Assembly (NCBI GenBank): GCA_944324405.1
Contig: CALUWF010000012.1
Span: 1-41,049, forward strand
Reading direction: 5' to 3'
DNA from: Candidatus Gastranaerophilales bacterium
Lineage (GTDB): Bacteria; Cyanobacteriota; Vampirovibrionia; Gastranaerophilales; Gastranaerophilaceae
Length of the DNA stretch: 41,049 bases
The notes beneath the pieces are model-generated. The model saw nothing but the letters and a program-made list of their open reading frames with translations, was not told the origin of the DNA and made no database searches. The position numbers and the translations under genes are program-made. Positions 14,988 through 41,049 of the stretch are shown here, one piece after another; the first letter of the stretch is position 1, and each line of letters starts with the position of its first letter.

Positions 14988-15314
14988 ATGAATGTAAAAA
15001 GACTATTAGGACGAAAAATTAAACAATATAGAGTTTTAAACGGCCTCACACAGGAGGAGTTGGCTGAAAAACTTAATATTTCACAGCGCACCTTAAGTGC
15101 AATTGAATGCGGGGCAAATTTCCTGAGTTCTCAAACGCTTGAGAAAATATTAGAAGTTTTTAATATAACTCTTGAGGATATGTTTTACTTTAACTATTTA
15201 AAGTCAAACAAAGAAATGGTAAACGAACTTATAGATGACATTAAGGCTAATGCGACAAACACCCAAAAATTACAGACAATATACAAAGTTGTAAAAGCAA
15301 TAATAAGAGATTAA
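14988..15314 (+). CDS. XRE-family helix-turn-helix repressor
   Basis: A 108-residue DNA-binding protein. The HTH covers about residues 8-62 (GRKIKQYRVLNGLTQEELAEKLNISQRTLSAIECG). The C-terminal helical tail (KLQTIYKVVKAIIRD) resembles that of the other XRE protein in this window at 39113-39430. I chose the ATG at 14988 because helix 1 follows directly. An in-frame ATG at 14958 would add MYLYYFLWCI and would place an inverted-repeat site inside the gene. That earlier start does have a weak AGGA 4 nt upstream, so it is not excluded. It probably represses itself and the divergent 152-residue gene. It is convergent with the TPR gene, with 1 nt between stops. Confidence 0.85.
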   Translation: MNVKRLLGRKIKQYRVLNGLTQEELAEKLNISQRTLSAIECGANFLSSQTLEKILEVFNITLEDMFYFNYLKSNKEMVNELIDDIKANATNTQKLQTIYKVVKAIIRD

Positions 15315-36457: not shown

Positions 36458-38002
36458 ATGATTAGTCGATTATTTTTAGTATTAGCAACAATGTTTCTTA
36501 TTCCCCAAAGTGTTTTTGCACTTAGCGTGAGTGATTGTGTGGACAAGTACTTTGCTCCCTTTTCAGACGCATTTTCGGGAGCAATTTTTACCTCGGTTAC
36601 AATTGCGGGCACAAAAGTGCCGGTTATAATTCTGTTTTTGATTTTATCAAGCATATTCTACACAATTTATTTAAGATTAATAGGCATATGGGGTTTCAAG
36701 CACTCTTTAAAACAGCTTTTCGGAAAATATCATAAAGAACATGACAATGATCGCGATGGCGAAGTAAGCTCTATGGGCGCTTTTGCAACCGCTTTATCAG
36801 GCACGGTAGGACTCGGAAATATTGCGGGCGTTGCAATAGCAATATCTATAGGCGGCCCCGGAGCTATGTTTTGGATGATATTCGGCGCACTTTGCGGCAT
36901 GGCTTCAAAATTTTTGGAATGCACACTTGCCGTTAAATACAGAAGGTTTAATGCGGACGGCTCAGTATCAGGCGGCCCTATGTTCTACATTGCGCACGGT
37001 CTTACAAGAAAGGGTTTGAGATGGCTCGGGCAGCCGCTTGCACTTATTTTTGCACTTATGTGTGTTCCGGGTGCTCTTGGCGGCGGAAATATGCTGCAAA
37101 TAAACCAGGCAACACAGCAGGTAATAAATATTACAGGCGGAGAAAGCAGCTTTTTTGCGGCTCATAGTTGGGTATTCGGCTTAATCGTTGCAATTATCGT
37201 AGGCTTGATAATCGTTGGCGGTATTAAATCCATAGCTAACGTAACTTCAAAAATCGTTCCCATTATGTGCGGCCTGTATTTGTTTGCCGCTGCGGCAATT
37301 ATCCTTATGAATTTTCAACACATCCCGCATGCGATATATGTAATAGTAAAAGAAGCCTTTATGCCTCAATCTGTTGTCGGCGGCATTATAGGTACGATTA
37401 TAATAGGTTTCAGACGCTCAGTACAATCTAACGAAGCAGGCTCCGGCTCTGCGCCGATTGCATACGCTGCTGTTAAAACAAACGAGCCTATTTCACAAGG
37501 TTTTGTTTCATTGATGGAGCCGTTTTTGGATACGGTTATTATATGTTCTCTGACTGCGTTTGTAATTATTATAACGGGCGAATATCTGAACTATCGCGAA
37601 GGTATAACAGGCGTAGAGCTTACTTCTGCGGCTTTTGGCGGAACAATTTCATTCTTCCCCTATGTGCTTGCGGTAGTCATAATACTTTTTGCAATTTCCA
37701 CTATTATAAGCTGGGCATATTACGGTCAGAAAGCATGGAGCTACCTTTTTGGAGAAGGTTTTAAACGTACAAAAGTTTACCAGATAATGTTTTGTATATT
37801 TATCGTAATCGGCTCTTGCATGAATCTTCAAAGTGTTATTGACTTTACGGACGCTACAATGCTTGCGATGGCTGCACCCAACCTTATTGCAATATTCATT
37901 CTCTTACCCGAAATTAAACAAGATTTGATTGCCTATTGCAAAAAATATAAATTAATAAATCCATTAAATAAAATATGGTTCAGTGATGAAAAATCCATAT
38001 AA
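36458..38002 (+). CDS. Sodium:alanine/glycine symporter (AGCS family)
   Basis: A 514-residue inner-membrane transporter that imports alanine or glycine with Na+. Family hallmarks are SSMGAFATALSGTVGLGNIAGVAIAISIGGPGAMFWM (about residues 103-140), DGSVSGGPMFYI, and RRSVQSNEAGSGSAPIAYAAVKTNEPISQGFVSLMEPFLDT. The usual NEAGMGSAP reads NEAGSGSAP here. The N-terminus resembles a signal peptide (MISRLFLVLATMFLIPQSVFA), which is somewhat longer than usual. I prefer the ATG at 36458, with GAGAG upstream, to GTG at 36449. Its end overlaps the bioF start, so the two genes are translationally coupled. Confidence 0.93.
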   Translation: MISRLFLVLATMFLIPQSVFALSVSDCVDKYFAPFSDAFSGAIFTSVTIAGTKVPVIILFLILSSIFYTIYLRLIGIWGFKHSLKQLFGKYHKEHDNDRDGEVSSMGAFATALSGTVGLGNIAGVAIAISIGGPGAMFWMIFGALCGMASKFLECTLAVKYRRFNADGSVSGGPMFYIAHGLTRKGLRWLGQPLALIFALMCVPGALGGGNMLQINQATQQVINITGGESSFFAAHSWVFGLIVAIIVGLIIVGGIKSIANVTSKIVPIMCGLYLFAAAAIILMNFQHIPHAIYVIVKEAFMPQSVVGGIIGTIIIGFRRSVQSNEAGSGSAPIAYAAVKTNEPISQGFVSLMEPFLDTVIICSLTAFVIIITGEYLNYREGITGVELTSAAFGGTISFFPYVLAVVIILFAISTIISWAYYGQKAWSYLFGEGFKRTKVYQIMFCIFIVIGSCMNLQSVIDFTDATMLAMAAPNLIAIFILLPEIKQDLIAYCKKYKLINPLNKIWFSDEKSI

Positions 38003-39131
38003 TGCCTATCGAAATGCACTTCTTGAAAAGAAAGAAAGCCTTAATTTCCGCTCATTAAATGCACTTGAAATTGAAGGCAAATATGTAATACAAAACAACA
38101 GAAGGCTTTTAAACCTCTCATCCAATGACTATCTTGGAATTAGCACCTATGAAGATATCAGGCAGGAATTTTTAAAAAATTACGACAAGCCGCTCAGTGT
38201 GCCCTCTGCAAGGCTTTTGTGCGCAAATACAACTTCGTATGAAAAACTTGAAGTGCTATTGAGCCAAAAATTTAAAAAGGAAGCCACACTTTTATTTAAC
38301 AGCGGCTATCACGCAAATGTCGGCATATATAGTGCCCTTGCCAAAAAGGGCGATGTTGTGTTTTGCGATAAGTTAAACCATGCGAGTATAATTGACGGGA
38401 TACGCCTTGGCGGCGCGGATTTAATACCTTTTAAACATGTTAATTATGAGGACTTGGAGTCAAAGTTAAAAAGATACGCTTCTAAATATGAAAATGTAAT
38501 TATTGCAACAGAGGCTCTTTTTTCAATGGACGGTGATTTTTGTGACATAAAAAAACTCACTGAATTAAAAGAGAAATACAACGCAATTTTAATTGTTGAT
38601 GAAGCACACTCTTTTGGCGTGTATGGCGGCGGTTTGGGCTTTTGTGCTCAAGAAAAAATGCTCGATAGTGTTGATTTGATTATGGCGACTTTCGGCAAGG
38701 CTGTCGGGTCTTACGGAGCTTTTTGTGTCGGGCGCAGGGTTTTGATTGATTATTTAATAAATTTTTCGCGCTCTTTTATTTTCTCGACGGTTTTTCCTCA
38801 AATAAGCGCCGAGTTTGCATATTTTGTGCTTGAAAATTACATTTTTAAATCAGATAACCTTGCAAAAAAACTTTTAAGCTTAAAAGACTATATGCACAAA
38901 AACCTCTGCGGCCTTGATATTCTTGGCTCAAGCTATATTGTTCCGATAATTTTTGGCGAAAATAAAAAAGCTCTTGACGCCTCTAAAAAATTATACGAAA
39001 ACGGCTATTACTGCCTTCCGGTAAGGTATCCGACAGTTGCCAAAAACTCCGCCAGATTAAGAATTTCCCTTAATGCCGCACTTAATGAAGCAGACTTGGG
39101 CGGACTTATAAATCAAATAAAAAAATTGTAA
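37986..39131 (+). CDS. bioF: 8-amino-7-oxononanoate synthase-like (BioF/Kbl family)
   Basis: A 381-residue PLP-dependent alpha-oxoamine synthase. In biotin synthesis BioF condenses pimeloyl-ACP/CoA with L-alanine. The relative Kbl uses glycine and acetyl-CoA. Visible features are NLSSNDYLG (43-51), HASIIDGIRLGGA (132-144), the PLP-contact IVDEAHSFGVYG (203-214) and the Schiff-base lysine in ATFGKAVGS (K238). BioF is favoured over Kbl by overall pattern, but the acyl substrate is not proven. It overlaps the symporter gene by 17 nt. No other biotin gene is in the window. Confidence 0.85.
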   Translation: MKNPYNAYRNALLEKKESLNFRSLNALEIEGKYVIQNNRRLLNLSSNDYLGISTYEDIRQEFLKNYDKPLSVPSARLLCANTTSYEKLEVLLSQKFKKEATLLFNSGYHANVGIYSALAKKGDVVFCDKLNHASIIDGIRLGGADLIPFKHVNYEDLESKLKRYASKYENVIIATEALFSMDGDFCDIKKLTELKEKYNAILIVDEAHSFGVYGGGLGFCAQEKMLDSVDLIMATFGKAVGSYGAFCVGRRVLIDYLINFSRSFIFSTVFPQISAEFAYFVLENYIFKSDNLAKKLLSLKDYMHKNLCGLDILGSSYIVPIIFGENKKALDASKKLYENGYYCLPVRYPTVAKNSARLRISLNAALNEADLGGLINQIKKL

Positions 39132-39430
39132 ACTGCTTTGTAAAATGTTCGCAACTCCTTATCGCTGAGGCGATTAAGTATATTTAAAATATCTTTTATT
39201 ATTTCTTTTCGCGATTTTAACGTCTGAGTCTGAAAAAAATCCCCCAAATTAACTTCAAGCGCGGTGGCAATTTTGTCCAAAGTTTCCAAAGTCGGCATTG
39301 TATGACAGTTTTCAATGCGATTTATCGTGCGATGATTCATTGAAATCATCTCGGCAAGCTTTTCTTGCGAAATTTTTTTTGCCCTTCTTATCTCTTTTAT
39401 TTTTTCGCCAACCAGCGCAATTTTACTCAT
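39113..39430 (-). CDS. XRE-family helix-turn-helix repressor
   Basis: A 105-residue repressor. The HTH spans about residues 9-65 (GEKIKEIRRAKKISQEKLAEMISMNHRTINRIENCHTMPTLETLDKIATAL). A helical tail (ILNRLSDKELRTFYKAVYNFF) resembles that of the XRE protein at 14988-15314, so they are probably paralogues. AGAGG precedes the ATG. It is divergent from the prepilin gene, whose promoter lies under a long palindrome (39509-39545) that is the obvious candidate operator. Its 3' end overlaps bioF by 19 nt on the opposite strand. Confidence 0.88.
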   Translation of the reverse strand: MSKIALVGEKIKEIRRAKKISQEKLAEMISMNHRTINRIENCHTMPTLETLDKIATALEVNLGDFFQTQTLKSRKEIIKDILNILNRLSDKELRTFYKAVYNFFI

Positions 39431-39499
39431 TTATACCTCTTTAAAGTATTGTAGTATCTTTATTTTTCAAAAACTATGCATATGCAAGTGCTTATTTTA

Positions 39500-39528
39500 T
39501 TGACAATGCGTATAAACATGTCTATAAT
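39500..39528 (+). promoter_or_regulatory. Consensus sigma-70 promoter of the prepilin gene
   Basis: TTGACA (39500-39505), a 17-nt spacer and TATAAT (39523-39528) match the consensus at all 12 positions. The predicted start is near 39535, giving a leader of about 100 nt before the ATG at 39635. This is the only perfect promoter I noticed in the window. Confidence 0.85.
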
Positions 39529-39545
39529 GTTGACATCTTTATACG
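39509..39545. promoter_or_regulatory. Palindromic operator over the prepilin promoter
   Basis: CGTATAAA (39509-39516) is inverted as TTTATACG (39538-39545). Inside them ATGTC (39518-39522) is inverted as GACAT (39532-39536). The arms are 14 nt with one mismatch, around a 9-nt centre that contains the -10 box. A bound repressor would block the promoter. The divergent XRE gene is the natural candidate. Confidence 0.65.
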
Positions 39546-39634
39546 AAAAAACCTGGAAATTTATAGCTGCATGTCTAACTAAGATACAGCTTGGTTCGGA
39601 TACCTTATTCTAAATAAAATAGAAAGATACGAAA

Positions 39635-41049
39635 ATGAAAAAATTATTTTTTAACCGCATCCGCGGTCAAAGGCATGCTTTTGCCACCGGTACTTTTGCT
39701 GCGCATAAACCCGCTTTTACCATTTCGGATAAAAACAATTTAGTGTGCAATTGTCACCCTGAACTCGTTTCAGGGTCTTATAAGTGCACACTGAAAAACA
39801 ATAATAAACAGCATAAAAAATCCGCATTTACTCTCGCGGAATTATTAACGGCAATTCTTATAATCTCAGTCATCATGGTAGCCTTAGCACCAGTTATTAC
39901 AAAAAGAATGAAAGACTCTATTGCAGTAACTACTGATAATAAAAAAGGTTTAGAAATATTTACAAACCCCGGTACTTATACTTTTGATGTCCCAATCGGA
40001 ATAAACACATTATTTATTCAAGGCTCCGGCGGAGGCGGTGGAGGAGCGGGAGCAAACGAAGCAGCATCTAAAACAGACTCCTATACTTCCAATTCAACTT
40101 GGACTGTTCCAAACGGTGTTAATAAAATTACACTTGAAATCATAGGTGCCGGCGGAGGCGGCGGAGGAGCAAATGGCAGCAAGACACCTAGTATAAATGA
40201 AAAAAACCCATATGTATATAATGACAAATGTTTGAGTGATGAATTTTTAGCCATTCGTGGCTCAAATGATGAAACTGATTTATGTATTGTTAATCACAAT
40301 GTTTCAATGCCAAATATCATTGGAATATTCCCATTGAATACCAGATGTGATACTGACACTTGTTGCTGGGAGGCCGAACCACCAGGCTCGCATTGTAGTC
40401 CGCCAAAACAGGGCGATGCCGCAACGGGTTGCAGCAGAATAGTTTGCACATATCAAGGTGCTGCACAAATGGTGGCTTATTACAAATATAATAATAATAG
40501 AGATTATATGTATGTCTATAGGTTGCCTGATGAAATTGAGGGCAACAAAATAATAAAATATCTTGATGACTGGTCAATAAATGCTGGGTCAAAAGGATTA
40601 CAGCTTTGCTCGTATAATGATGTGTATAGTTGTACTTATAATGAGCCTGATACTGTTCCAATATGTGCCGCGCATTATGGCTGTATAGGCTCTGTAAATG
40701 GTCAGTGTGCGTCACACGTAGTATTGCTTGCAAATGAAAAGAGGTTTGATTGGGGCGGTTCATGCAACAAATATGTAGTTGATAACAATAATTATACTGG
40801 CAGTGTACGCCCAGTTCGCTCTCTTAATCGTTACAATCGCTTCTCCGCCTCAGGCGGAGCATCAGGAGCAATCATGGAAAAAGAAATTAATGTATTACCT
40901 AATGATAAGTTAGAAATATCAATAGGCTCCGGAGGAGATGGAGGAAAGTATGGAACAAATGCAAATAATGGCATATCTTCTCGAAGCGGGAACGGAAAAC
41001 AGGGAGGACAAACTAAGGTAGTTCATAAAAGGGGAAGTACAACTCTTGG
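39635..41049 (+). CDS. Prepilin-like protein with glycine-rich domains (3' end outside window)
   Basis: An open frame with no stop for 471 codons, cut by the window end. Residues 63-90 hold a type IV prepilin-like signal, SA then FTLAELLTAILIISVIMVALAP. Cleavage is expected after Ala64, with Glu at +5. The leader before it is about 64 residues, far longer than usual, and part of it (residues 37-53) is encoded by a palindromic repeat. Two modules of the form F-x-x-PGTYTFDVP...GSGGGGGG (to 140) and TWTVPNGVNKITLEIIGAGGGGGG (to 178) follow. A cysteine-rich region (about 200-370) and another Gly-rich stretch (431 on) come next. It is probably a surface or pseudopilus component. The Shine-Dalgarno is weak. 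Confidence 0.82.
   Translation, partial: MKKLFFNRIRGQRHAFATGTFAAHKPAFTISDKNNLVCNCHPELVSGSYKCTLKNNNKQHKKSAFTLAELLTAILIISVIMVALAPVITKRMKDSIAVTTDNKKGLEIFTNPGTYTFDVPIGINTLFIQGSGGGGGGAGANEAASKTDSYTSNSTWTVPNGVNKITLEIIGAGGGGGGANGSKTPSINEKNPYVYNDKCLSDEFLAIRGSNDETDLCIVNHNVSMPNIIGIFPLNTRCDTDTCCWEAEPPGSHCSPPKQGDAATGCSRIVCTYQGAAQMVAYYKYNNNRDYMYVYRLPDEIEGNKIIKYLDDWSINAGSKGLQLCSYNDVYSCTYNEPDTVPICAAHYGCIGSVNGQCASHVVLLANEKRFDWGGSCNKYVVDNNNYTGSVRPVRSLNRYNRFSASGGASGAIMEKEINVLPNDKLEISIGSGGDGGKYGTNANNGISSRSGNGKQGGQTKVVHKRGSTTL
39742..39792. repeat. 51-bp palindromic repeat inside the prepilin gene
   Basis: The outer arms AGTGTGCA (39742-39749) and TGCACACT (39785-39792) are perfect inverted copies. The inner hairpin CCCTGAA (39757-39763) and TTCAGGG (39769-39775) closes a 5-nt loop. 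The inner core matches the repeats at 1-10 and 312-436. Its length is a multiple of three and it is read in frame, giving the peptide CHPELVSGSYKCT. Confidence 0.75.

Follow-up and report, generated by a model that had tools for sequence, protein, structure and literature searches.

A divergent XRE-family gene and a palindrome over a prepilin promoter: a proposed private repressor in a Gastranaerophilales pilin repertoire

Overview of the locus

Our analysis of a 41,049-nucleotide stretch of DNA from a Candidatus Gastranaerophilales bacterium (contig CALUWF010000012.1, hereafter the window) indicates that a small XRE-family regulator probably represses the divergent promoter of a prepilin-like gene through a palindrome lying between the two genes, and that this prepilin is one of many variants, each of which could be controlled separately. 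The view of this XRE protein as a private repressor for the window prepilin is well supported by sequence comparison, and involves the following features.

39113-39430, minus strand: XRE (Cro/CI-type HTH) gene, 105 aa, type X10, divergent to the prepilin gene; proposed private repressor
39500-39505, plus strand: -35 box TTGACA, retained at all three orthologous loci
39509-39545, no strand assigned: 37-bp palindrome spanning the spacer, the -10 box and the predicted start; proposed operator
39518-39536, no strand assigned: operator core with half-sites ATGTC (39518-39522) and GACAT (39532-39536), retained with X10-type XREs in other genera
39523-39528, plus strand: -10 box TATAAT, retained at all three orthologous loci
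39635-41047, plus strand: prepilin-like gene (N_methyl, Gly_rich_2), incomplete, running into the contig end at 41049
39827-40045, plus strand: shared N-arm from FTLAE onward, the predicted leader ending just before 39827
40163-40846, plus strand: hypervariable Cys-rich domain, probably with a C-type-lectin-like fold (alignment, structural model and structural matches)

The XRE gene lies on the other side of the promoter, where a preliminary description of the sequence had placed it, and its product scored 56.9 bits against HTH_3 (cut-off 23), identifying a Cro/CI-type HTH protein; its score against the RstR family (NF041951), 50.3 bits, was below the curated cut-off of 80. Orthologs in two genus mates (G002 and G008) are 90% and 87% identical, and the HTH segment MN(H/T)R(S/T)I.R(I/L)EN is common to all 12 aligned X10-type proteins and different in seven paralogs. 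Another XRE-like match (34% to the window XRE) is found outside the prepilin pairs at 15000-15293 on the plus strand, and is retained at the corresponding place of the syntenic G008 contig.

The prepilin-like gene carries the N-terminal cleavage and methylation motif of type IV prepilins with its hydrophobic helix (PF07963, 22.3 bits, cut-off 21.2; TIGR02532, 16.5 bits, cut-off 16.3) and a Gly_rich_2 match of 29.2 bits. The Gly before the cleavage site is absent, with Ala in its place (KSAFTLAE), and is present in the G002 and G008 orthologs (QKGFTLAE). Modelled alone, the variable domain reached a pLDDT of 88.5, and its structural matches belong mostly to the C-type-lectin/FGE group. The best structural Z scores were 7.6 (Lcl, whole model) and 7.2 (domain), which are middling, and the best Foldseek E was a weak 0.14; the C-type-lectin-like fold is therefore graded as only probable. 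Two short repeats accompany the leader. The palindrome ACCCTGAACNNGTTTCAGGGT (39756-39776), encoding a leader peptide of the HPELVSGS type, has 15 copies in the window genome (reversed control 0), each in or adjoining a prepilin leader as compared by eye. The second, GATACGAA, lies directly upstream of the prepilin start (39626-39633). Of 101 loci, 33 carry it no more than 700 nt upstream of FTLAE and none has it in the control stretch further upstream; it is possibly a shared leader or a conversion boundary.

The promoter and its palindrome

The preliminary description had reported an exact TTGACA-17-TATAAT promoter and a 37-bp palindrome with inner ATGTC and GACAT covering the -10 box, and both were recovered by our analysis. 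The two promoter boxes (39500-39528) match the consensus at 12 of 12 positions across a 17-nt spacer and form the top-scoring promoter-like site within 37000-41049, their spacing predicting a transcription start near 39535. The palindrome has the layout CGTATAAACATGTC-TATAATGTT-GACATCTTTATACG, with 13/14 pairs in the arms and 15/18 over the full 37 bp. When the 204-nt intergenic region was shuffled 2000 times with its dinucleotides preserved, 0.35% of the shuffles reached an equal palindrome and 0.15% contained a 12/12 promoter.

By itself, the promoter is ordinary: the 1.8-Mb genome contains the exact pattern twice, and because the reversed control pattern is equally frequent (also twice), exactness alone carries no signal, which comes instead from conservation. 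The other exact occurrence (L164, C21:13092-13120 of the same genome) holds a palindrome, AGTTAGATATCTAACT, in its spacer. The window palindrome is single-copy in the genome, allowing up to three mismatches, and the promoter region likewise has neither a duplicate nor an inverted version there.

Association of the site with the XRE type

The exact 12/12 promoter is retained at all three orthologous loci of the genus, and the palindrome, whose conservation in relatives the preliminary description had proposed as a check, is also present in both genus mates. In G008 the site reads GCATAAAGATGTC-TATAATGTT-GACATCTTTATGC and is fully paired (13/13); one position is altered on both arms relative to the window, and the C-C mismatch of the window is paired. 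The G002 palindrome is weaker, with 13 of 18 pairs.

A survey of 288 genomes of the family yielded the window XRE at E 1e-20 or better in 17, three of them from this genus, and we examined the loci of nine of the other 14, where identity to the window XRE is 54-63%. Both half-sites are present at seven of these nine distant loci: six (L242, L243, L245, L246, L247 and L249) have [AG]TGTC-N10-GACAT around TATAAT, and L248 has ATGTC-N11-GACAT inside a palindrome with 16/16 pairs. One half-site was found at L250 and none at L244. The gene divergent to these distant X10-type XREs is a glycosyltransferase in all five cases scanned (L242, L243, L246, L248 and L250); no glycosyltransferase-like reading frame was seen at L244. 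The exact core ATGTC-N9/10-GACAT was absent from all 64 intergenic regions of prepilin pairs with other XRE types, and turned up at three places in the 842,704 bases fetched from other loci. A shared regulon motif was rejected as an explanation of the operator, since the zero-mismatch core in 15 genomes of the genus is confined to the three X10 loci, the remaining matches to the core pattern all having two mismatches.

These comparisons establish the pairing of XRE type with site at the level of sequence. Since the half-site accompanies the XRE across genera, a repressor-operator pair is the best reading, and the change of target from prepilin to glycosyltransferase while XRE and site stay together is the best support for binding short of experiment. 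We infer binding itself, repression rather than activation, surface display of the pilin and a release signal; the variants may or may not be expressed one at a time. The 39113-39430 protein, presumably as a dimer, would bind ATGTC...GACAT over the -10 box and start, keeping RNA polymerase off the prepilin promoter, and its release would allow a strong burst from this near-consensus promoter, producing one prepilin variant with a lectin-like domain. The genome would hold about 16 such sites, each with its own regulator and many with a visibly different operator, and recombination between copies would keep the coding arms alike while the regulators remain distinct.

One regulator per prepilin copy

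The window prepilin is one of about 19 paralogs in its genome (21 matches, 19 loci read). Across seven genomes, 68 close prepilin loci (E under 1e-30) comprise 43 with a divergent XRE, 19 with another divergent regulator, four linked to lepA and two outside these classes, of which one is HTHb-like. This set gives the fair rate, whereas the 67 of 101 loci with an XRE in the wider collection are an unfair figure because some of those loci were chosen partly for an adjoining XRE match. Within the four genomes of best coverage, a private divergent regulator accompanies 55 of 59 close copies; the remaining four are lepA-linked copies, one in each genome. Twelve types, each with 2 to 10 members, were distinguished among the XREs of prepilin loci, and the other regulators include MerR, S24 (one type carrying an S24 domain, as in CI/LexA proteins) and three small HTH-like types (HTHa, HTHb and HTHc). 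HTHa scored below cut-offs and HTHb and HTHc matched no Pfam HTH family, "HTH-like" being a judgement by eye; non-XRE types were assigned by motif string. No regulator type was found more than once in a genome, and an arrangement in which each copy has a regulator of its own would allow the variants to be controlled separately. This layout is shown by sequence comparison across the genomes, and such a pilin repertoire is unusual.

The lepA-linked copies (L070, L100, L117 and L118) have no regulator. In three genomes the copy is preceded by TTGACT-17-TATAAT but by no palindrome; in the window genome it has a leader insert there, with no promoter in the stretch scanned. The lepA-linked copy may be constitutive.

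Relatives of the N-arm are sparse over the family: a search of 60 genomes at E 1e-6 found them in 9, of which two belong to this genus. In a genome of another genus (G050), the prepilins have a different helix (FSLVEMLMALL), and an XRE-like gene lies divergently upstream at 11 of the 15 loci read, two of these having a nearer small HTH-like gene; the G050 and G035 regulators were assigned to X6, X9, X2, HTHb and HTHc by eye. Prepilin genes are often broken at contig ends in these metagenome assemblies, probably because their 3' arms are repeated.

Type-specific conserved dyads are also visible at other pairs (X2, X5, X6, X8, X9 and X11, besides X10). Those of X6 and X11, of X10 in two of three members, and of the X8 and X9 of the window genome exceed shuffles; X2 is borderline and X5 too short to tell. 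No palindrome beyond chance was found by shuffling for X0, X3, X4 or X7, so that an own palindrome for every pair is not general. In G050, the X6-like pair retains TCACGTTC-AC-GAACGTGA and the X9-like pair TTACTGGA-CTATA-TCCAGTAA; the palindrome scan found none at the X2-like XRE of G035 (L239). Summed over 18 groups, the prepilin-facing promoter score was 181 against 157 for shuffles (maximum 166 of 200), and the XRE-facing strand, with a sum of 153, had no promoter better than chance; comparison thus shows, from sequence, that the promoters are oriented toward the prepilin.

Concerted evolution of the coding arms

In G008, 14 prepilin copies with 14 different upstream arrangements share a 73-aa N-arm that is identical in protein and encoded by 12 distinct DNA sequences, with similar C-arms and a hypervariable middle. 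Similarity among copies begins at FTLAE, the leader end; leader and upstream DNA are mostly locus-specific, and leaders are shared in G008 by the pairs X10 with lepA and X6 with HTHa. Trees were calculated without the four of 62 N-arm rows that have a different arm. For genome labels, the N-arm tree (36 loci) required 8 changes and the XRE tree (39 loci) 27; for regulator labels the numbers were 30 and 11, respectively. The N-arms therefore cluster by genome and the XREs by type, indicating that the arms are homogenised within genomes while the regulators stay put. Concerted evolution of the coding arms is thereby shown at the level of sequence comparison.

A reverse transcriptase locus lies elsewhere in the window genome (L262/L265, C1, about 336.7-349.8 kb), where a bAvd gene and the reverse transcriptase adjoin a prepilin paralog with an Lcl_C-like stretch. 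Thirty-two tandem cassettes of about 265 nt each (C1:341,282-349,539) encode a lectin-like segment, the array resembling either a pilS-type archive or a DGR with many templates. The neighbouring prepilin, broken in frame, holds a cassette copy with the same boundaries and 212/215 identity, both substitutions being at cassette A positions. When the DNA of the 32 cassettes was compared with the 19 prepilin loci, they matched this prepilin (C1:340k) only and not the window gene, leaving DGR diversification of the window gene unsupported.

Alternative explanations

Adjacency of the XRE gene is no proof of binding, and the palindrome might belong to another, global regulator beside which the XRE merely lies. 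We consider this improbable, as the full site in the genus is found at X10 loci only and its core accompanies XREs of this type in other genera, where the target gene differs. Slightly less improbable, and still unlikely, is that the XRE acts as an activator, or that the site serves mainly to control the XRE's own gene. Divergent regulators often control their own genes, and the analysis located no promoter for the XRE gene; however, the site lies across the -10 box and start of a promoter already at consensus, an arrangement that fits repression. The site begins 78 nt upstream of the XRE start codon, and the XRE-facing strand lacks a promoter better than chance.

The XRE and palindrome could also be the remnant of a prophage repressor-operator region with no role in pilin control, given the weak, below-cut-off RstR likeness and the S24 domain of one regulator type. 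This is very improbable: the regulator types recur once per genome with upstream DNA conserved across species, and no phage genes stood out on reading the window's long ORFs. Palindromes can also serve as recombinase sites, and the prepilin family recombines, which would be consistent with a recombination site or an invertible promoter switching phase by DNA inversion. An invertible promoter was rejected on the single copy of promoter region and palindrome in the genome, and the core is also retained at loci whose target gene is of another kind, so that we give this explanation the least credence of all. The earlier suggestion of a strong promoter held by a tight repressor in a switch-like or phase-dependent gene is well supported, by comparison, in its divergent XRE repressor; its switch or phase component is conjectural.

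Comparison with known systems and implications

Repression by the window XRE would resemble that of Cro/CI-type repressors in the HTH_3 protein, the divergent layout and the dyad over the -10 box, but here many apparently non-interchangeable pairs occur per genome, each presumably guarding one member of a surface-protein family. In Neisseria, a single expressed locus, pilE, is fed by silent pilS copies. The pilin copies described here are similar in their conserved arms, variable parts and signs of exchange between copies; instead of one expressed locus with promoterless silent copies, however, we found copies with upstream promoters and regulators of their own. The probable lectin-like variable domain and the RT and bAvd locus recall DGR targets with a C-type-lectin fold, whereas the repertoire varies, gaps included, across the entire domain, and the RT-side cassettes match one prepilin locus other than the window's. 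MrpJ of Proteus lies inside a fimbrial operon and acts on motility genes; MrpJ-type regulators likewise pair XREs with many pilus loci per genome, but here the regulator is divergent and has a local site. The C-terminal domain of Legionella Lcl is among the best structural matches of the variable domain (Z 7.6 and 7.1), although these Z values are middling and the domain here lies in a prepilin between Gly-rich arms.

The portion of the literature that was searched, PMC5877343 included and most subscription papers and bioRxiv preprints outside its scope, holds no report of such a repertoire in Gastranaerophilales or Melainabacteria. A more speculative picture, which we hold only tentatively and consider rather doubtful as a whole, would be a dispersed library of lectin-tipped pilins with a dedicated repressor and an orthogonal operator for each variant, one or a few variants being displayed independently per cell; gene conversion would keep the scaffold uniform, and the RT locus with its 32-cassette archive would be the source of new binding surfaces for another pilin. 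Most known systems of antigenic variation work by switching a single expression site or by inverting promoters. If each variant does possess a different repressor, this common and little-studied gut lineage would exemplify a further way of selecting a surface ligand. The repertoire would also provide natural XRE/operator pairs that appear orthogonal and whose sites are legible from conserved intergenic regions, so that repressor-operator specificity is directly testable.
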